Origin: Gammaproteobacteria bacterium
Lineage (GTDB): Bacteria > Pseudomonadota > Gammaproteobacteria > Steroidobacterales > GCA-2729495
DNA length: 11,648 nt
Direction of reading: 5' to 3'
NCBI GenBank assembly: GCA_023150055.1
Contig: JAKLLP010000033.1
Span: forward strand, 1-11,648
Shown here: in pieces, positions 366-11,099 of the stretch
How positions within the stretch are numbered: position 1 is the first letter of the stretch
Layout: the number at the start of each line of letters is the position of its first letter
The notes under the pieces: model-generated
Database searches by the model: none
Told to the model about the DNA's origin: nothing
The model's input: only the letters and a program-made list of their open reading frames with translations
Position numbers and translations under genes: made by a program

Positions 366-1400
366 ATGAGCCCGGACAGACCCCTCACTTACAAGGACGC
401 CGGTGTCGATATCGATGCGGGCGACGCGCTGGTCGAGCGCATCAAGCCGCTGGCGCGCCGCACGGCCCGGCCGGGCCTGCTCGGCGGCATCGGCGGCTTT
501 GGCGGGTTGTTCGAGATCGACCTTGCCCGCTATCCGCGGCCCGTGCTGGTGGCGGGAACCGATGGCGTGGGGACCAAGCTGCGGCTCGCCCTGGACCTCG
601 ACAAGCTCGACACCGTGGGCATCGACCTGGTCGCCATGTGCGTCAACGACGTCGTCGTCCAGGGCGCGGAGCCCCTGTTCTTCCTCGACTACTACGCCAC
701 CGGGAAACTCTCGGTCGAGCAAGCCGAGACCGTCGTGCGTGGCATCGCCGCTGGCTGTGAACTCGCCGGCTGCGCGCTCCTGGGCGGCGAGACGGCGGAG
801 ATGCCCGGCATGTACGCGCCGGGGGATATCGATCTCGCCGGCTTTGCCGTCGGCATCGTCAACCGCGACCGGATCATCGACGGCGCCACGGTCGCACCGG
901 GCGACGTGCTCCTCGGCCTCGCCGCCTCCGGCCCGCACTCCAACGGCTATTCGCTTATCCGCCGCATCCTCGAGCGCCAGCCGGATGCCGCGGGGAAGCC
1001 CTGGGACGGGCTGACGCTCGGCGAGCGCCTGCTCACCCCCACCCGCATCTACGTCAAGCCACTGCTCGCGCTGTTCGGCCAGTGCGAGGTGCGCGCACTG
1101 GCGCATATCACCGGCGGCGGCCTGCCCGGCAATGTCGAGCGCGTGCTTCCCGCTGATGCCGACGCCTGCATCGACCCGGCAAGCTGGCAGCGGCCGGAAG
1201 TCTTCGCCTGGCTGCAGACCACCGGCCAGGTCGCCGATGCCGAGATGTATCGCACCTTCAACTGCGGCATCGGCATGGTGGTGGTGGTCGCGCGCAACGA
1301 CGCCGAGCGCGCCCTGCAGGCGCTGCGCGCGGCCGGCGAAACCGTGCAGAAGATCGGCGAGATCCGCCCCGGCACCGGCCGGGTCCGTATCGGCACATGA
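366..1400 (+). CDS. purM: Phosphoribosylformylglycinamidine cyclo-ligase (AIR synthetase)
   Basis: PurM converts formylglycinamidine ribonucleotide to aminoimidazole ribonucleotide using ATP, the fifth step of de novo purine synthesis in the cytoplasm. The 344-residue product matches the usual length (E. coli about 345). It has the family landmarks in order: [13 protein letters not shown] start, the glycine-rich GGFGGLF (43-49), GTDGVGTK (64-71), [18 protein letters not shown] (93-110), [11 protein letters not shown] (140-150), [12 protein letters not shown] (188-199), [10 protein letters not shown], and [11 protein letters not shown] near the C-terminus. An AGGA ribosome binding site ends five bases before the ATG. 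The stop overlaps the purN start by four bases (ATGA), so the two are probably translationally coupled. A perfect GCCCGG-T-CCGGGC palindrome (321-333) sits in the leader, with unknown meaning. Nothing in the protein looks damaged. Confidence 0.97.
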
Positions 1401-2032
1401 GCGCGGCGGGCGCCACACGCCTGCGCGTCGCGGTCCTCGTCTCCGGCAACGGCTCGAACCTGCAGGCCCTCCTCGACCAGCGCGACGCCGCTGCGCCGGG
1501 CTACGACATCGTCGGCGTCGTGAGCGACCGCCCGGGCGTCTTCGCACTCGAACGCGCCACCCGCGCCGGCATACCGGCCATCACCGTCGACTACCGGGCC
1601 TGCGGCGGACGTGAAGCGTTCGCACGCCGACTCGGTGAGGAACTCGACGCCCTGCAACCCGCACTCGTCGTGCTGGCAGGGTTCATGCGCATACTCCCGG
1701 CTGAACTCGTCAACCGCTACCGCGGATATACGGGTCTCGATACCTACCGGCGCGCGCTCGAAGCGGGCGACCCCTGGCACGGCACCACGGTGCACTTCGT
1801 CACGCCCGACCTCGATGCCGGCCCCGCCATCCTGCAGTACCGGCTCGCGGTCACCCGAGGGGATACCGAGGAGACCCTGCGCGAGCGCGTGCAACGGGGC
1901 GAGCACCGGATCTACCCGCAGGTCGTGCACTGGATCGCCGCCGGGCGGGTCGGCATGGAAGGCGGTGGGGTGCTGCTGGACGGCCGCGCACTCGCGCGGC
2001 CGGTGATAGTCGACGAAGATCAGTTGACCTGA
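1397..2032 (+). CDS. purN: Phosphoribosylglycinamide formyltransferase, lacking the catalytic Asn/His segment
   Basis: PurN transfers a formyl group from 10-formyltetrahydrofolate to GAR in purine synthesis. The 211-residue product has the family fold signature: [13 protein letters not shown] (14-26, GAR phosphate loop), [10 protein letters not shown] (91-100, folate site), [19 protein letters not shown] (128-146, with D140 matching the catalytic Asp144 of E. coli) and a normal C-terminus ending near WLDG/LLDGR. Between G110 and Y111 (bases 1726/1727), however, 12 residues are missing relative to the E. coli protein as I recall it. The missing stretch contains NIHPSLLP, including catalytic Asn106 and His108. 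The frame is kept, so the gap is 36 bases. The total length looks normal only because the N-terminus is about 8 residues longer. As written, the enzyme should be inactive or badly impaired; a genuine deletion, an assembly artefact, or compensation by another enzyme such as PurT are all possible. The identity of the gene is certain; its activity is not. Confidence 0.93.
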
Positions 2033-2304: not shown

Positions 2305-3555
2305 ATGACCACCGACGCCAACCGGATCATCATGGATTTGCAGGTAACAGCACCCGAAGATTTTGCCCGCAGGGCGCAAGGCCTCCTCGAACGCGGCCAG
2401 GCGGAAGACGCCCATCGGCTGTGCTGCGAGGCGCTCGACCAGTTCCCGGACGAACTCGACCTGCTGATGCTCCGGGCGCACATCGAAGCCTCGCAGGGGA
2501 AGTTCATCGGTGCGCTGGCCACGCTCGACCAGTTCCTGCAGAGAAAGCCCGGCGATCCGCTCGCGCTCAGCAACCGGAACAAAGTGGAGGCACTTCAGCG
2601 CAGCAGCCGCGAGCACCCCTACACCGTCCGTTATCTTCAGCATCGCTCGGTTCACATGGACTACCCGCGCACCGTGTCGATCGAAACGACCGGGCGATGC
2701 AATGCCACGTGCAACTTCTGTCCCGCGCCGGAACTCGAGCGCAAGCACCTCGCCATGCCGGAGGCACTGTTCCGCAAGATCATCGAGGACCTCAAGGCAA
2801 TACCCGAGCACGTGCCGCTCAACATCAACACCAACGTGGTCAATGAGCCGTTCATGGACAAGAGGATGTTCGCGCGGCTGCAGTACATCAACGAGCAACT
2901 CCCACGCGCGCGCATCCAGATCTACTCCAATTTCAACGTGCTGCCGCGAAACTACATGGCGAGCTTCCGCAAGCTGCGGAACTTCATGAGCCTGAACGTC
3001 TCGTTCAACGCGGCCAACAAGCACGACTACGAATCGGTCATGCACATCGACTTCGACCGCACCGTCGAGCATCTGCGGACCTTCATGACCGGGAACCGGA
3101 GCGACCGTTTTCTGCGGCCCCCGGTGATCCTTTCGCGGGTGGCCGACAACACGAATGCGGACAAGGCCTATATCGAGGACTGCCGCAAGTTGTTTGCCGA
3201 ATTCGAAGAAGGTGTCGACTATTTGCCGAAGATCAAGCCACGCATCACATGGCTCGGCGACACGCACATCAAGCAGGGACAAATACCCTACTTTCTGCCC
3301 TGCGATGCCTGGCTCGACATGAACATCATGTGCACGGGGGTCGTGCCGCTATGCTGCATAGACGCCCATGGCGACCACGCCGTGGGGGACGTCAGCAAGC
3401 ACTCCGTGCTGGATGTCTACAACTCACCCGGTTTTCGCAAGCTCCGCGAAAAACACCTGCAGCGCGAGGGCCTCAACCCCTGCGGCGGCTGCTCGCCCTA
3501 TGCCGAGGTGCGGGAAGACCCGAACCATTTCGCTTTTCGGACCGTAAACGACTGA
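2305..3555 (+). CDS. TPR-like / radical SAM / SPASM-type protein of unknown substrate
   Basis: The 416-residue protein has three parts. Residues about 12-100 form paired helices with TPR character (alternating small and large hydrophobics, ending LQRKPGDPLALSN). The radical SAM core begins around residue 120 and carries the CNATCNFC motif, with C132, C136 and C139 as ligands of the SAM-binding 4Fe-4S cluster. The NEP of NVVNEPF (179-181) sits where the family usually has GEP. The C-terminal part has C333, C343, C350, C351, C393 and C396, consistent with a SPASM or twitch domain holding one or two auxiliary clusters. SPASM proteins modify peptides or sugars by radical chemistry; the substrate here cannot be read from sequence. 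A possible ribosome binding site (GTAGGGG) lies rather far (about 12 bases) before the ATG. An in-frame ATG at 2332 is the alternative start. The next gene, a sulfotransferase, begins 177 bases downstream on the same strand. Confidence 0.85.
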   Translation: MTTDANRIIMDLQVTAPEDFARRAQGLLERGQAEDAHRLCCEALDQFPDELDLLMLRAHIEASQGKFIGALATLDQFLQRKPGDPLALSNRNKVEALQRSSREHPYTVRYLQHRSVHMDYPRTVSIETTGRCNATCNFCPAPELERKHLAMPEALFRKIIEDLKAIPEHVPLNINTNVVNEPFMDKRMFARLQYINEQLPRARIQIYSNFNVLPRNYMASFRKLRNFMSLNVSFNAANKHDYESVMHIDFDRTVEHLRTFMTGNRSDRFLRPPVILSRVADNTNADKAYIEDCRKLFAEFEEGVDYLPKIKPRITWLGDTHIKQGQIPYFLPCDAWLDMNIMCTGVVPLCCIDAHGDHAVGDVSKHSVLDVYNSPGFRKLREKHLQREGLNPCGGCSPYAEVREDPNHFAFRTVND

Positions 3556-3732: not shown

Positions 3733-4359
3733 ATGCCCGTTTTCGTAAAAGGCGGAACTTCGATTCTTTTCGTGCACATCCCGAAGACAGGAGGCCGAAC
3801 AATTGAATCCAAGTTCCAGGACTCCGGTTATCAATTGTCCTACATCGATATGGAGGCGGAGGGCCTGAACCGTCTGCGGTGGTGCTCGCCGCAGCATATG
3901 GACTCAAGCCAGTACATCCGAATCCTTGACCTGTCGAAGTTCGCTTTCATGTTTGCCGTCGTCAGGGAGCCTGTAAGTCGACTGAAATCCGAACTGGGCA
4001 TGCACTTGCAGCAGAACTTCCGCAACAGCGTCGAGCAGAACGATCAGTGGGTCATGGACGCGCTGGCCGGCTACCAGGCCAATCCGTATCTGTACGACAA
4101 CCATTTGCGGCCACAGTACGAGTTCATTGCCCCGGGGGTTGCTGTGTTTCGTTTCGAAGAGGGGCTCGATGCCATCCTTGCCGAAGTGGAGAGACGGCAC
4201 CCTGATATCTCGCTCGTGCCAGGCCATGCCCGCATCGGGTCAAGAGCAGAGCGCAGCGGATTCTCGAGCTCCGAGATCGCACTGAGCGAGGACGTGACCC
4301 GGCGAATCAGGGCGTTTTACGCTGCAGATTACGAGCGGTACTACCCCGACCTGCTCTAG
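3733..4359 (+). CDS. Sulfotransferase family 2 protein (HIPKTGG type)
   Basis: This 208-residue protein carries the two PAPS-binding elements of Golgi-type (family 2) carbohydrate sulfotransferases. The 5'-phosphosulfate loop is FVHIPKTGGRTIE (13-25), and the 3'-phosphate motif is FAVVREPVSRLKSEL (74-88) with R78 and S86. The expected reaction is transfer of sulfate from PAPS to a sugar hydroxyl, probably on a nascent polysaccharide in the cytoplasm, since no signal peptide or membrane segment is visible. The C-terminus ends in a DYERYYPDL stretch, common in this family. The ribosome binding site is weak (GAAAG about 7 bases before the ATG). Only 8 bases separate its stop from the GT61 gene, so the two are probably co-expressed. 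GC is clearly lower than in purM: 32 of 60 bases in 3961-4020 against 49 of 60 in 421-480, by hand count. The acceptor is unknown. Confidence 0.87.
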   Translation: MPVFVKGGTSILFVHIPKTGGRTIESKFQDSGYQLSYIDMEAEGLNRLRWCSPQHMDSSQYIRILDLSKFAFMFAVVREPVSRLKSELGMHLQQNFRNSVEQNDQWVMDALAGYQANPYLYDNHLRPQYEFIAPGVAVFRFEEGLDAILAEVERRHPDISLVPGHARIGSRAERSGFSSSEIALSEDVTRRIRAFYAADYERYYPDLL

Positions 4360-5269: not shown

Positions 5270-5905
5270 TCAGCTCGATCCACGGTCGAAATCGTAGCCA
5301 AAAAGCTCGATATCATCCCGATAGCATGCCCGCACATGCTCCCGCGTCTCGGCATCGAAATACTCCCGATAGTCTCGCCGCTCGGCTGAGACATTCCTGC
5401 GAGGCAGTGGCACACGCTCACCGAATATCCGCTGGAAAATGGGTTCGATTCCTGCCTCGAGGTTCTCGAAGCGCACGACTTCATCGACGATCAGGTTCTT
5501 CCCGGAGTCGCAGACGAACTCCCATTGCGGCTCAAACCGCCGGCGGACCTCGGGTTGCCCCGGCACGGGATAACCGTTGAAAACGAAGTCGCGAAAATCA
5601 ATACCAGCCGGACCAACGAGGAACTTGTAGGCCGATACCAGCCGGTCCCACGGGTTACGCACGACAGCAAACTTGAAGTAGTCGGCATAATCAATGGGGG
5701 CAATGTAACCAAGGTCGATGTATTCCGCGGCTTTCAGGTGCGCGAGCCGTCTGGGTCCTCTCACGGGGTCGGGGTTTTCGCGCATCAACAACGGCGCGCG
5801 CGTCTCCCAGGTAAGCCCCGACTTCTGGACGAACACCAGTTCGATGCTTTGCCCCGCCGTCTTGGGGACATGAACAAAAATGGTGCGGTAACGATGAGAA
5901 ATCAT
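5270..5905 (-). CDS. Sulfotransferase family 2 protein, distal gene of the rhamnose operon
   Basis: The 211-residue protein has the 5'-phosphosulfate motif FVHVPKTAGQSIE (10-22) and the 3'-phosphate motif FAVVRNPWDRLVSAY (79-93), with R83 and S91 in the expected places. Both are typical of family 2 carbohydrate sulfotransferases, which use PAPS. No signal peptide or membrane segment is seen. It lies 138 bases beyond rfbB on the same strand and is probably transcribed with the rfb genes. An AGG about 5 bases before the ATG is the only ribosome binding candidate. It differs enough from the 3733-4359 protein (TAG versus TGG in the P-loop, different middle and C-terminus) that the pair is not a recent duplication; they probably sulfate different positions. 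Its 3' end faces the GT61 gene with a 44-base gap. Placement right behind dTDP-rhamnose synthesis suggests, but does not show, that the acceptor contains rhamnose. Confidence 0.88.
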   Translation of the reverse strand: MISHRYRTIFVHVPKTAGQSIELVFVQKSGLTWETRAPLLMRENPDPVRGPRRLAHLKAAEYIDLGYIAPIDYADYFKFAVVRNPWDRLVSAYKFLVGPAGIDFRDFVFNGYPVPGQPEVRRRFEPQWEFVCDSGKNLIVDEVVRFENLEAGIEPIFQRIFGERVPLPRRNVSAERRDYREYFDAETREHVRACYRDDIELFGYDFDRGSS

Positions 5906-6043: not shown

Positions 6044-7135
6044 TCACGCGGAAACAACGGAGTTGCTGTCTGACCTCGCCAGCACCCCGTCGCACCACTC
6101 CTGGTTGCCCAGGTACCACTGCACCGTCGCTGCCAGGCCACTGGCCAGGTCAATGCTCAGCCTGAAGCCGAGCTCCTGCCTGATCTTCGACATATCTATT
6201 GCGTAGCGACGATCGTGTCCTGGCCGGTCCGGCACGAAGGTCTGCAGTGACGCCACCGGCCGCCCATGGGCGGCCGGGCAGTCGGGAAACCGGTCACGTA
6301 AATCCGGGTCCTCCCCGAAACAGCGGTCCACCAGTTCGCAGACCTGCGCGATCAGCTCGAGGTTGGAAACCTGGGTCTCGCCGCCGACATTGTAGGTTTC
6401 ACCAGGCCTGCCATGAGCGAGGACAAGATCGAGAGCACGGCAGTGGTCCTCGACGTGCAACCAGTCGCGAATGTTCAGGCCATCACCATAGACCGGGAGT
6501 GGAATGCCACGCAGGCAGTTCAGTATGAACAGGGGAATCAGCTTCTCCGGGTACTGGAACGGGCCGTAGTTATTCGAGCAGTTCGAGATCGTCGTTTCGA
6601 GCCCGTACGTCCGGGAATAAGCGCGGACCAGCAAATCCGCCGCCGCCTTGCTGGCCGCATAGGGCGAGTTGGGTGCAAACGCGGTCCGCTCGGTGAAAGG
6701 CGGATCAGCCGGACCAAGCGACCCGTAGACTTCGTCGGTCGATACATGGTGAAAGCGGTGACGGGGTACCCGGCGATCGACGAGCCAGGCGCGCCTCGCC
6801 GCCATCAGCAGGCTGTGGGTGCCGCTGACGTTGGTATCCACGAACGCCTGCGGTCCCTCGATCGACCGGTCGACATGGCTTTCAGCGGCAAGGTGCACGA
6901 GCGTGTCGATCTCGTGCAGGCGCATGAGCCGGTAGATCTCCGCTTCGTTTCTGATATCGCCCTGAACGAAAGTGACGGTCGGAAGGCCGAGCACATCGGC
7001 GAGGCTGGGCAGGTAGCCCGCGTAAGTCAGCGCGTCATAGACCAGAATGCGATCGCCTGGATGCTTCCGGCACCAGTAGCGAACGAAATTGCTGCCGATG
7101 AAACCCGCGCCACCCGTTACCAGCAGACTAGACAT
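6044..7135 (-). CDS. rfbB: dTDP-glucose 4,6-dehydratase
   Basis: RfbB (RmlB) dehydrates dTDP-glucose to dTDP-4-keto-6-deoxyglucose using bound NAD+, the second step of dTDP-L-rhamnose synthesis. The product is an extended short-chain dehydrogenase with TGGAGFIG (7-14) for NAD binding, catalytic Thr133-Asp134-Glu135 in STDEVYG, Tyr159 and Lys163 in YAASK, and SNNYGPFQYPEKLIPL downstream. The C-terminus ends normally after TVQWYLGNQEW, at 363 residues, close to the usual 350-360. I chose the ATG at 7135 (MSSLLVTGG); an in-frame ATG at 7153 would add MRWWRR, which does not fit the family start. The chosen start overlaps the end of rfbD by 8 bases. The following 138 bases to the sulfotransferase contain no gene I can support. 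Confidence 0.96.
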   Translation of the reverse strand: MSSLLVTGGAGFIGSNFVRYWCRKHPGDRILVYDALTYAGYLPSLADVLGLPTVTFVQGDIRNEAEIYRLMRLHEIDTLVHLAAESHVDRSIEGPQAFVDTNVSGTHSLLMAARRAWLVDRRVPRHRFHHVSTDEVYGSLGPADPPFTERTAFAPNSPYAASKAAADLLVRAYSRTYGLETTISNCSNNYGPFQYPEKLIPLFILNCLRGIPLPVYGDGLNIRDWLHVEDHCRALDLVLAHGRPGETYNVGGETQVSNLELIAQVCELVDRCFGEDPDLRDRFPDCPAAHGRPVASLQTFVPDRPGHDRRYAIDMSKIRQELGFRLSIDLASGLAATVQWYLGNQEWCDGVLARSDSNSVVSA

Positions 7136-8000
7136 GCGCCGCCACCATCTCATCGAACATCAGCCGCAGATTGGTCCGCCAATGCACTGACTCGACACCG
7201 AGCAGAGCACAGGTCTCGCTGGAATCGAGCACGCTGAAAGCTGGCCGCTGTGCCGGCGCACCATACTCGCGGGTGGTCACCCGCTCGATCGGGGGCGCTT
7301 CTGGCAGCATGCCGCGGGCCGTGGCATCTTCCAGGATCGCCAGCGCAAACTCGAACCACGATGCCTGGCCCGCATCGGCATGGTGGAACATGCCGGCAAC
7401 GTCGTTCCGCTCCGCGAGGCGCCACAGGACGCCGGCGAGACTGGCAGCCCAGGTCGGGGATCCCACCTGGTCACCGACCACGCGCAGCGACTGGCCGGCG
7501 CGCGCCTTTTTCAGGATTGCCTGCACGAAACCCTCGCCCCACGCTGAATACAGCCAGGCCGAACGCACAATGACCGCCCGGGAACTCGCCCCGAGAACGG
7601 CCTCCTCTCCTTCCCGCTTGGAGCCGCCATAAGCACTCAGCGGCCCCGGGCGGTCGGAGGGCCGGTAAGGCGCGAGGGCGCGGCCGTCGAAGACGTAATC
7701 GGAGGAAACATGAATCAGCCTGATACCCCACCGGTCGCAGGCCCGGGCCAGGATACCCGGAGCCACCGCGTTGACGGCATATGCCTGCCGCGGCTCCCGC
7801 TCCGCCTGATCGACGGCGGTGTATGCGGCCGCATTCAGCACGACGGCGGGCCGTTCCGAAGCGAGGCAGGTTTCCACAGCCGTGCTGTCGGTGATGTCGA
7901 GTTCCGCGCGCGTCATGGCTCGCACCTGCGCACCGTCTGGTGCCCGCCGCAACAACTCGCCGCCCAGCTGACCGGCGGCTCCGGTAACCAGGACTTTCAT
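7128..8000 (-). CDS. rfbD: dTDP-4-dehydrorhamnose reductase
   Basis: RfbD (RmlD) reduces dTDP-4-keto-L-rhamnose to dTDP-L-rhamnose with NAD(P)H, the final step of the pathway. The 290-residue protein shows VTGAAGQLG (5-13) as the nucleotide-binding loop, LNAAAYTAVDQAE (55-67), the catalytic region HVSSDYVFDG (97-106), and the Tyr124/Lys128 pair in YGGSK. SAWLYS and VGDQVGSPTW follow, as usual. The length is typical (E. coli about 299). The start overlaps the rfbC stop by four bases (ATGA), with GGAG just upstream inside the end of rfbC. The stop lies within the beginning of rfbB. Every junction in this operon is an overlap, so the enzymes are likely made in balanced amounts. Confidence 0.96.
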   Translation of the reverse strand: MKVLVTGAAGQLGGELLRRAPDGAQVRAMTRAELDITDSTAVETCLASERPAVVLNAAAYTAVDQAEREPRQAYAVNAVAPGILARACDRWGIRLIHVSSDYVFDGRALAPYRPSDRPGPLSAYGGSKREGEEAVLGASSRAVIVRSAWLYSAWGEGFVQAILKKARAGQSLRVVGDQVGSPTWAASLAGVLWRLAERNDVAGMFHHADAGQASWFEFALAILEDATARGMLPEAPPIERVTTREYGAPAQRPAFSVLDSSETCALLGVESVHWRTNLRLMFDEMVAAHV

Positions 8001-8545
8001 CGCTCCAGTTCTGCGTCGGCCAGGGCGAGGCCCTGCCGGTCCTTCTGCGACAGCACCGGCTCCCGCCCTTCCGGCAGCGGCCAGTCGATGGCCAGGTGTG
8101 GGTCGCTCCAGAGAATGGTTCGCTCGCCGTCAGGGTGGTAATAGTCGGTGCACTTGTAAATGACGTCTGCCGTCTCGCTCAGTACCAGGAAGCCATGGGC
8201 AAGCCCCGGCGGCACCCACAGCATCCTCCGGTCAGCCGCTGAGAGGCGCAGGCCGAACCATCGGGCGAACGTCGGCGAGCCCGCGCGGAGGTCCACGACG
8301 ACATCGAACACATCGCCACTGCTGACGCGCACCAGCTTGCCCTGCGGCTTGCCCAGCTGGTAATGCAGACCACGCAGTACGCCGTGTACCGACCGGCTGT
8401 GGTTGTCCTGAACGAATGGTGCCTCGATGCCGAGGGCTGAGAACTCCCGGGCATTCCACGTCTCCATGAAAGAGCCGCGGTGGTCCTCGAACACGACGGG
8501 CTCGAGAACCTTGACCCCCGGGATCGGCGTATCGACTGCGCGCAT
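7997..8545 (-). CDS. rfbC: dTDP-4-dehydrorhamnose 3,5-epimerase
   Basis: RfbC (RmlC) epimerises C3 and C5 of dTDP-4-keto-6-deoxyglucose. The 182-residue cupin protein matches the normal length of about 180-185. It has FEDHRGSFMETW (19-30), NHSRSVHGVLRGLHYQ (48-63) with catalytic H61, K70, Y130 in VIYKCTDYYHP, and D169 in SQKDRQG. These correspond to the His-Asp dyad and Tyr known for Salmonella RmlC (about H63, D170, Y133). The ATG shares one base with the rfbA stop (TGATG), consistent with translational coupling. Confidence 0.97.
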   Translation of the reverse strand: MRAVDTPIPGVKVLEPVVFEDHRGSFMETWNAREFSALGIEAPFVQDNHSRSVHGVLRGLHYQLGKPQGKLVRVSSGDVFDVVVDLRAGSPTFARWFGLRLSAADRRMLWVPPGLAHGFLVLSETADVIYKCTDYYHPDGERTILWSDPHLAIDWPLPEGREPVLSQKDRQGLALADAELER

Positions 8546-9420
8546 CAGTCGCTTTCATGCAGCACGGACAGCAGATACTGGCCGTAGCCGCTGCTCGTCA
8601 ACGCGCCTGCCAGGCGTTCCAGCTGCTTTTCGTCGATAAACCCCATGCGGTAAGCGATTTCCTCCGGGCAGGAGATCTTCAGGCCCTGCCGCTCCTCGAC
8701 CAGCCGCACAAAGTTCGCGGCATCGAGCAACGACTCATGCGTTCCGGTATCGAGCCAGGCAAAGCCCCGGCCAAGACGTTCGACCTGCAACTCACCCCGA
8801 TCGAGGTAGTGACGGTTGACGTCGGTAATCTCGAGTTCACCCCTGGCCGAAGGCCGCAGCCCCCGGGTGATGGCGACGACGGAAGCGTCGTAGAAATAGA
8901 GCCCGGTCACCGCCATGCTCGACTTTGGCTTCGCCGGCTTCTCCTCGATATCCGCCGGCTGACCCGACCGGTCAAAGGAGATCACTCCATAACGCTGCGG
9001 ATCGCGGACATTGAATCCGAAGATGGTGGCACCGGACGCGCCGGCTGCGCGTCCGAGGATCTCGCGAAAGCCCCGGCCGAAAAACAGGTTGTCCCCAAGC
9101 ACCAGCGCGACCCGGTGACTACCGATGAAATCCTCGGCGATCAGAAAGGCCTGCGCGATCCCGCCAGGCTGTGGCTGGACGGCGTACTCGATATTCAGGC
9201 CCCACTTAGCACCGTCGCCGAGCACCGCCTGAAACGACGGCTGATCATGCGGGGTGGTGATGACGAGGATGTCCCGGATTCCCGCGAGCATCAGGACCGA
9301 CAGCGGGTAGTAGATCATCGGCTTGTCGTAGACGGGCAGCAACTGCTTGCTGATCCGGTGCGTCAGCGGATGAAGGCGGGTCCCGGTTCCCCCGGCCAGA
9401 ATGATTCCGCGGCAGTTCAT
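8545..9420 (-). CDS. rfbA: Glucose-1-phosphate thymidylyltransferase
   Basis: RfbA (RmlA) joins glucose-1-phosphate and dTTP to make dTDP-glucose, the entry and usual control point of the rhamnose pathway (family members are inhibited by dTDP-rhamnose). The protein has the nucleotidyltransferase signature [16 protein letters not shown] (5-20) followed by [17 protein letters not shown] with Lys25, then VLGDNLFFG and a C-terminal [12 protein letters not shown] region with [13 protein letters not shown]. The start is set at the ATG at 9420: it gives 291 residues, the standard length, begins two residues before the signature, and has GGAGA at 9426-9430 with a 5-base spacer. A longer frame back to 9504 would add 28 residues with no family counterpart. 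This is the first gene of the operon; the promoter should lie in 9421-9659. Confidence 0.97.
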
Positions 9421-9425
9421 GCAAA

Positions 9426-9430
9426 TCTCC
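9426..9430 (-). promoter_or_regulatory. Ribosome binding site deciding the rfbA start
   Basis: On the minus strand this reads GGAGA, five bases before the ATG at 9420. It is the best ribosome binding site of the operon and supports the 291-residue RfbA rather than the 28-residue-longer version starting at 9504. Confidence 0.75.
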
Positions 9431-9512
9431 GCAACTTGACCCAAATGCTGCCAAGGATATCTGTGCCGACGCCATCTGGACACGGAAAGGCTACCAGATT
9501 GCATCGCACATC

Positions 9513-9530: not shown

Positions 9531-9659
9531 TACCGCATAGATCTCTTCCATTTAGCAGGATGCCACTGACCCACCCCACTTGGTTCAGTAGGAAGAAGTC
9601 ATCTGCAGCACAACGCCCGCCCTGCTGTTTTGTCAGCTATATGCGACGCTCCGTCGCCC

Positions 9660-11099
9660 ATGAATATTGTTTTCATCATGACTGACACGCAGACCAAGGC
9701 CATGGTCGGCGCGTACGGTCACCCCCAGATGGATACGCCAAACCTGGACCGACTTGCCCGGGAAGGCATCCGTTTCGAGCGAGCCTACACCACCTCACCG
9801 CTCTGCACATCGGCGCGCAGCGCGCTCTTCACGGGACTTCACTCCCAGGTGAACGGCGCCTGGTGCAATCACATCGCACCCGGACGCGGGGTGGCCATGA
9901 TGGGCGAGATTTTCCGCTACTACGGCTACCGGGCCGGGTACACCGGCAAGTGGCATCTCGATGGAACCACATATGCCGGCACCGGCATTCCGGGCGGTGG
10001 ATTCGAGCCTGACTGGTGGTATGACGGCCTGCGGTATGTCCAGGACATCGGCCCTGAACGGTTCCAAGCGTACCGCTCGTGCCGGACACCGGCCGACTTG
10101 CGCAGGGCCGGGGTCGTCGAGGGCGATCTGTGGGGCCCTCGCGTCGCCGACCGCGCGATCGACTTCCTCGGCAGCGTCAAGGGCGAGCCGTTCGTCCTGG
10201 TCGTCTCGTTCGAGGAGCCGCATGCTCCAGCGCTGGCGCCGCCTGAATACTGGGAGCGCTTCGCCTCCATCGGTCTGCGCGCCCGCCCCAACCGCGCGGC
10301 ATCGACTGCCAGCAAGCCGCGGTTGATGCAGATACAGCGTGAAGAAAGGGGCGAATTGGGCACGCCCCCGCAAGGGCTGGTCTTTTTTCCCGAGTTCTTC
10401 GGGTGCAACAGCTTCATCGATCGGCAGATCGGGCGCGTGATTGATGCCGTCGATCAGCTCCACCCGGACGATACGACGATCATCTACACGACGGACCACG
10501 GCGATCTGCTCAACAGCCACGGACTCATCGGCAAAGGCCCGATGATGTACGAGGAATCGTGCAATATCCCGCTGATCATCCGTCGACCGGGAGGACCGCA
10601 AGGCGCGGTGAGCGACGCGCTGGCCAGTCATGTGGATCTCCTGCCCACCATGCTCGACCTCTGCGGGCTGGCCCAACCGCCAATCCTGCAGGGCCGTTCC
10701 CTGGGGCCCGTGCTTGTCGATCCAACCGCGAGGGTTCGCGACTACACGCTGCTCGAATTTCATCGTTACGCAATAAACAACGACAGCTTCGGCGAGTTTT
10801 ATCCCGTTCGATGCGTGGTCGACACCCAATACAAACTGGTCATCAACCTGTTCGAGACGGACGAGCTGTATGACCTGCGCAACGATCCGTACGAGATGAA
10901 CAACTGTCTCGGCGACCCGAGGCTCGCCGATGCGCGCGACCGGTTGCACGATTGGCTGCTCGCCGAAATGGACCGGATTCGCGACCCGTTCCGCAGCTTT
11001 CGCTGGGGGAACAGGCCCTGGCGGCAGGCAAGAGAGCAGTTTTATTTCGGCGGCGCCAATCGCGAGCGCCCCCCGGGTTTTCCCTTTTTCACCGATTGA
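9660..11099 (+). CDS. YidJ-like type I sulfatase with noncanonical CTSAR active-site motif
   Basis: Type I sulfatases hydrolyse sulfate esters using a formylglycine made from Cys or Ser. This 479-residue protein follows E. coli YidJ (as recalled) almost end to end: NIVFIMTDTQ at the start (D9 metal ligand), SPLCTSARSALFTG (46-59) with candidate formylglycine C49 and R53, YTGKWHLDG (94-102; K97, H99), SFEEPHAP with H188, YTTDHGDLLNSHGLIGKGPMMY (D279, H280, K292), and the C-terminal SFGEFYPVRC, DELYDLRNDP and RDPFRSFRW segments. In YidJ the active-site motif is CTPAR; here Pro is replaced by Ser (codon TCG at 9810-9812). That may weaken recognition by the formylglycine-generating enzyme. There is no signal peptide, so the enzyme appears cytoplasmic, like YidJ. 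I chose ATG 9660 over TTG 9630 because it starts exactly at the family N-terminus; neither has a clear ribosome binding site. In this locus it may remove or recycle sulfate from the same glycan. Confidence 0.92.
   Translation: MNIVFIMTDTQTKAMVGAYGHPQMDTPNLDRLAREGIRFERAYTTSPLCTSARSALFTGLHSQVNGAWCNHIAPGRGVAMMGEIFRYYGYRAGYTGKWHLDGTTYAGTGIPGGGFEPDWWYDGLRYVQDIGPERFQAYRSCRTPADLRRAGVVEGDLWGPRVADRAIDFLGSVKGEPFVLVVSFEEPHAPALAPPEYWERFASIGLRARPNRAASTASKPRLMQIQREERGELGTPPQGLVFFPEFFGCNSFIDRQIGRVIDAVDQLHPDDTTIIYTTDHGDLLNSHGLIGKGPMMYEESCNIPLIIRRPGGPQGAVSDALASHVDLLPTMLDLCGLAQPPILQGRSLGPVLVDPTARVRDYTLLEFHRYAINNDSFGEFYPVRCVVDTQYKLVINLFETDELYDLRNDPYEMNNCLGDPRLADARDRLHDWLLAEMDRIRDPFRSFRWGNRPWRQAREQFYFGGANRERPPGFPFFTD

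Follow-up and report, generated by a model that had tools for sequence, protein, structure and literature searches.

A 36-base in-frame gap in the purN gene of a gammaproteobacterial draft genome: a probable local assembly error

Introduction

What does it mean when a purine-pathway gene is open from start to stop and lacks the core of its active site? In PurN, Asn106, His108 and Asp144 (Escherichia coli numbering) constitute the catalytic triad and SLLP is a tetrahydrofolate-binding motif, as stated, citing earlier work, in PMC4786211. In the window (hereafter, the whole stretch of 11,648 nucleotides that was analysed), the purN gene is without 36 bases that its relatives carry. Here, we describe this gap, its distribution among relatives and similar gaps in the same draft genome, and weigh an error of the draft against a real loss.

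Results

PurN lacks a single 12-residue block

The purN product scored 157.5 bits against TIGR00639, above the curated cut-off of 150.1; the match covered residues 10–185 of the protein and positions 2–189 of the profile, i.e., it was 12 residues short. The purM and purN genes overlap by a few bases (Table 1), and the purM product showed no deficit against its own family profile, residues 7–334 corresponding to profile positions 1–330. As revealed by alignment with the solved E. coli PurN, there is one gap of 12 residues, corresponding to E. coli residues 103–114 (RLLNIHPSLLPK), which takes out the catalytic Asn106 and His108 together with SLLP (numbering counted off the alignment). The catalytic Asp144 is retained as Asp140, in a column that is invariant in the alignment of relatives. 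At the join, the protein reads NRYRG followed by YTGLD, in frame and free of N. Thus, the first-pass annotation, which had claimed the loss of exactly 12 residues holding Asn106 and His108, is confirmed by this single gap; its placement of the join at 1726/1727 with an intact frame agrees with the codon positions and the stop-free ORF, and the NIHPSLLP motif, the numbering and the catalytic Asp (D140), which it had named, proved correct upon alignment to E. coli PurN.

Table 1 Features of the window and of other contigs of the draft genome (positions are those of the window unless a contig is given)
Feature	Position	Strand	Description
purM	366..1400	+	Directly 5' of purN; TIGR00878, 443.2 bits
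purN	1397..2032	+	ORF of 211 residues, no stop, frameshift or N; 12-residue block missing
Junction	1726..1727	+	36 bases of the relatives absent, between Gly110 (codon 1724-1726) and Tyr111 (codon 1727-1729)
Asp140 codon	1814..1816	+	Corresponds to catalytic Asp144 of E. coli, as counted from the alignment
ORF following purN	2305-3555	+	Weak radical-SAM maturase matches; N-terminal part weakly matches a TPR protein model
ORF	3733-4359	+	No NCBIfam match at 1e-3
ORF	5270-5905	-	No NCBIfam match at 1e-3
rmlB, rmlD, rmlC, rmlA	6044-9504	-	Above cut-offs; dTDP-rhamnose pathway
Arylsulfatase-like ORF	9630-11099		Same window
Run of 13 N	L031:11649-11661		Same contig, just past the end of the window
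FHA-domain cyclase-like protein	G000 contig C479, L097:6028-6918	+	18 residues of the FHA core missing
NUDIX protein	G000 contig C473, L091:74-649	-	In-frame 15-residue gap
HNH_2 protein	G000 contig C473, L091:14488-15423	+	In-frame 23-residue gap

The gap is private to the draft among the relatives compared

The occurrence of PurN was surveyed in 60 genomes, namely the draft itself (G000) and 59 others, including nine genus-mates. A strong match (E-value of 3.3e-32 or better) was found in 54 of the 59, and all 54 relatives were longer than the window's gene over the same span by 27–36 nt, the difference being exactly 36 in 45 of them (by arithmetic on the match rows). In a MAFFT alignment, the 12-residue block was present in 29/29 relatives, including 9/9 genus-mates; the alignment contained one clean 12-column gap, in the window's PurN and in none of the 29 relatives (0/29). 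The alignment of PurN from the closest relatives, a check proposed at the outset, thus showed the block in every sequence. Both Asn and His were also kept in 19 relatives taken from named records, with uncultured Gammaproteobacteria among the nearest (20 were fetched, and L055, which matched only residues 3–68, was left out). Moreover, the motif, sought as an exact coding pattern, was matched once in each of the eight genus-mates searched and nowhere in the draft itself. Among the 44 positions that are invariant in the other 29 PurN sequences, seven fall inside the gap and the other 37 carry no substitution, a pattern that, judged on this alignment, is more than chance would give.

The remainder of PurN is conserved

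At the remaining 37 invariant positions, no substitution was found (0/37). Comparison with the gene of the single-contig genus-mate G007 (L002) gave dN of 0.22 and dS of 0.83, inside the range of the other pairs. Therefore, the loss of constraint outside the lesion that marks a decaying pseudogene was not found with either measure, and on these sequence comparisons PurN outside the gap is free of visible decay and under the same constraint as in the relatives.

The AlphaFold2 model of the window's PurN (20-row alignment; mean pLDDT, 86.6) is without the strand that bears Asn and His, and its pLDDT falls below 50 at residues 110–113, whereas the model of an intact relative (L038; 19-row alignment; mean pLDDT, 95.2) has a strand at residues 112–116. 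The overall fold is preserved in the model, with TM scores of 0.81–0.86 (by query length) against the ten best PurN structures. Because the model loses the Asn/His strand and has low pLDDT at the junction, activity of the shortened protein as a transformylase is predicted to be unlikely. The protein resembles PurN (phosphoribosylglycinamide formyltransferase; TIGR00639, PF00551; E. coli structures 1cde and 1c2t) in its score above the cut-off, in having purM directly upstream, and in its catalytic Asp, 37 other invariant positions and largely kept modelled fold, and differs from it in missing the 12 residues that include Asn106, His108 and SLLP.

Other genes of the purine pathway

In the draft, purH and purD were found above the respective cut-offs, as was purL, which is cut by a contig end and whose product (842 residues up to that end) aligns end to end with solved PurL. 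PurT (TIGR01142), a formate-dependent GAR transformylase, could replace PurN, and the first-pass annotation had supposed that it might rescue a defunct PurN. It was found above the cut-off in 12 of the 60 genomes (own draft included in the 60); unlike these 12, the draft (73% complete) and the nine genus-mates gave no PurT match above the cut-off, which does not favour that supposition. The search for purT or a second purN, likewise proposed earlier, thus yielded, for the draft, no purT above the cut-off and a single PurN match. PurT above the cut-off together with no PurN-grade match was seen in three relatives, namely G032, which belongs to the same family, and G044 and G057, which share the order. 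In these, PurN seems to have been replaced by PurT, and such replacement therefore occurs in this order; where the replacement is a true one, purN has disappeared and is not notched.

Three further genes of the draft have private in-frame gaps

The draft comprises 2.65 Mb in 517 contigs and is 73% complete. A sample of 81 stretches, ten of which were wholly masked, amounted to 606,766 bases; its comparison with 1.2 Mb of G007 gave 139 reciprocal-best ORF pairs with 46,915 aligned columns and a median identity of 74.6%, among which some weak pairs are probably shadow frames. When a gap was counted only if it had at least 10 residues and both 15-residue flanks were at least 53% identical, four gaps were found in the draft versus none in G007, a small count. 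With the flank filter off and a threshold of at least 6 residues, the numbers were about equal (11 in the draft versus 9 in G007). Of the gaps of at least 10 residues, those that failed the flank filter numbered three for the draft and one for G007; each was close to the end of an ORF, where the sequences matched poorly.

In addition to PurN, the counted gaps are those in the FHA-domain, NUDIX and HNH_2 proteins (Table 1); they span two contigs, the latter two sharing one. The FHA gap lies in the domain core, and therefore the Pfam FHA domain is no longer detected. Among 22 matching relatives of this protein, all 21 readable ones were longer by 39–57 nt, the remaining one (G038) being split over two contigs. 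The NUDIX protein also had 22 matching relatives, six of which were split at the same place and left out of the count, and the 16/16 represented by a single row were longer by 42–60 nt. For the HNH_2 protein, 5 of the 10 matching relatives had an N-terminal row, and all five were longer by 69 nt (hand arithmetic); the matches of the other five start no more than 6 residues from the junction and are uninformative. Wherever the relatives are readable, these three gaps are, by match length, private to the draft.

An additional NCBIfam scan covered 38 further draft ORFs out of 199 candidates that G007 did not cover. In this coarse test, the 19 ORFs above a family cut-off had profile spans exceeding the protein spans by at most 9 residues, two ORFs below the cut-off showed deficits of 10 and 11 residues, and 12 had no NCBIfam match at the strict E-values used. 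Within the window, rmlA, rmlB, rmlC and rmlD showed deficits of at most 1 residue against their best models.

Reading frame and sequence features at the junctions

All four gaps (PurN, FHA, NUDIX and HNH_2) are in frame, and none is out of frame. An error blind to the frame would give four of four in frame by chance with a probability of about 0.02; without PurN, which had been picked by the reader, three of three would be obtained with a probability of about 0.05 (calculated by hand with the same share). In the compared draft sample, two ORFs whose C-terminal part had no match being left out, no out-of-frame deletion was found. The search for adjacent matches of the same gene in different frames flagged two draft loci, of which one coincides with an N run and the other is a tandem paralogue pair; the unfiltered frame-change lists, part of which was checked, consisted mostly of shadow frames. 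When 37-base deletions were planted, a test slightly looser than that of the survey recovered them in 106 of 122 genes.

The PurN junction contains no N, and no repeat able to explain a false overlap was found there. Direct-repeat slippage was considered and rejected: the boundary matches per 24 bases (5 for PurN, 4 for FHA, 9 for HNH_2 and 8 for NUDIX), compared at the deletion spacing in G007 and judged against the same genes, were not unusual. A hairpin was also rejected, as DNA folding was no better than that of shuffled sequences (z of 0.62 for the junction and 1.05 for one relative). Six-base palindromes, seen post hoc, lie at or beside three of the four junctions.

Runs of exactly 10 N are a habit of assemblers. 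In the unmasked draft sample, 22 of 27 N runs were exactly 10 long and were therefore taken as a mark of short-read scaffolding.

The rest of the window

The two window ORFs without an NCBIfam match look, as we assume, like sulfotransferases, and together with the arylsulfatase-like ORF they perhaps form a sulfated-glycan island. The contig continues beyond the run of 13 N, which lies within an ORF that is presumably also sulfotransferase-like. Neither a tRNA nor an Rfam match was found in the window. The first-pass annotation had considered relaxed constraint on purN beside a glycan island; this is unsupported, because the rest of PurN is constrained and three like gaps occur on two other contigs.

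Discussion

Collectively, the 36-base gap in purN is probably a local error of the draft genome (probability, about 0.6), as judged from the assembled sequences. Two stretches of purN would have been joined across a short unassembled interval, and the living cell would keep an ordinary PurN; we infer both that short reads underlie the draft and that the assembler produced the join. Such an error is likelier than a dead enzyme because other genes of the draft show private gaps and the rest of purN is healthy. Among the three readings offered at first, an assembly or consensus error is accordingly the best supported one, with a private gap, three like gaps elsewhere and no decay. The case is similar to the local assembly errors of metagenome-assembled genomes treated in PMC7111523, in that short private changes affect conserved genes, several in a fragmentary draft. 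It differs in that those errors are recognised by lack of read support, whereas the present gaps are known from the assembled sequence, and all four are in frame. In PMC7111523, the word "deletions" has 0 occurrences and a gap of the present kind is not described, and nothing specific on in-frame assembly deletions was met in the literature searched. What speaks most against a plain assembly error, though weakly, is that the gaps are in frame only; ordinary gene decay fits this even less, because decay would leave frameshifts and stops. Also on that side, the gaps are few: three others versus none, two of the three on one contig.

The main rival to an assembly error is a real and recent deletion: the sampled population would carry a purN null allele, its cells taking up purines from outside or using a PurT encoded by sequence missing from the bin. 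This is possible, though clearly the less probable of the two. A null allele would be compatible with the gap-free, in-frame junction, and the restriction of the gaps in four genes to in-frame lengths fits selection on real genes better than blind error; G032, G044 and G057, moreover, have purT above the cut-off and no PurN-grade match. However, neither the draft nor any of the nine genus-mates has PurT above the cut-off, the rest of PurN is without decay, and the other purine genes sought are present. Gene loss would also bring frameshifts or stops, and the sole frame change found, apart from the two ORFs left out, sits at an N run.

A real deletion that leaves a working protein, whether this acts as a formyltransferase through a rebuilt site or has a non-catalytic role such as binding pathway partners, is very unlikely. 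Although normal constraint in the rest of the protein and the overall fold kept in the model are what a working protein would show, the model is without the Asn/His strand and has low confidence at the junction, and the lost Asn106, His108 and SLLP have catalytic and folate roles according to PMC4786211. No positive evidence was obtained for the other role that the first-pass annotation had allowed. Similarly improbable is the broader view that the lineage fixed several in-frame losses (in the PurN active site, the FHA core, NUDIX and HNH_2) with the frames kept open, and that the shortened PurN was selected for a role other than formyl transfer. A second, intact purN elsewhere in the genome that frees this copy is the least probable of all: an extra copy could be unbinned in a draft of this completeness, but the draft holds one PurN match and no exact match to the motif, and each of the nine genus-mates has one PurN-grade match, the second rows being weak (E-values of 6.8e-9 to 2.3e-5) and presumably Fmt-like.

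If the gap is an assembly error, it warns that the catalytic core of a housekeeping gene can drop out of a draft without a change of frame; the gene therefore still passes its family cut-off, as PurN does here, and escapes frameshift checks. According to section 9 of PMC7111523, when such errors are left uncurated, protein-coding sequences that are incomplete or incorrect spread through databases. If, alternatively, the gap is real, the organism would have purM, purL, purH and purD without a working PurN or PurT, and would be either an unexplained purine auxotroph or the bearer of another GAR transformylase.
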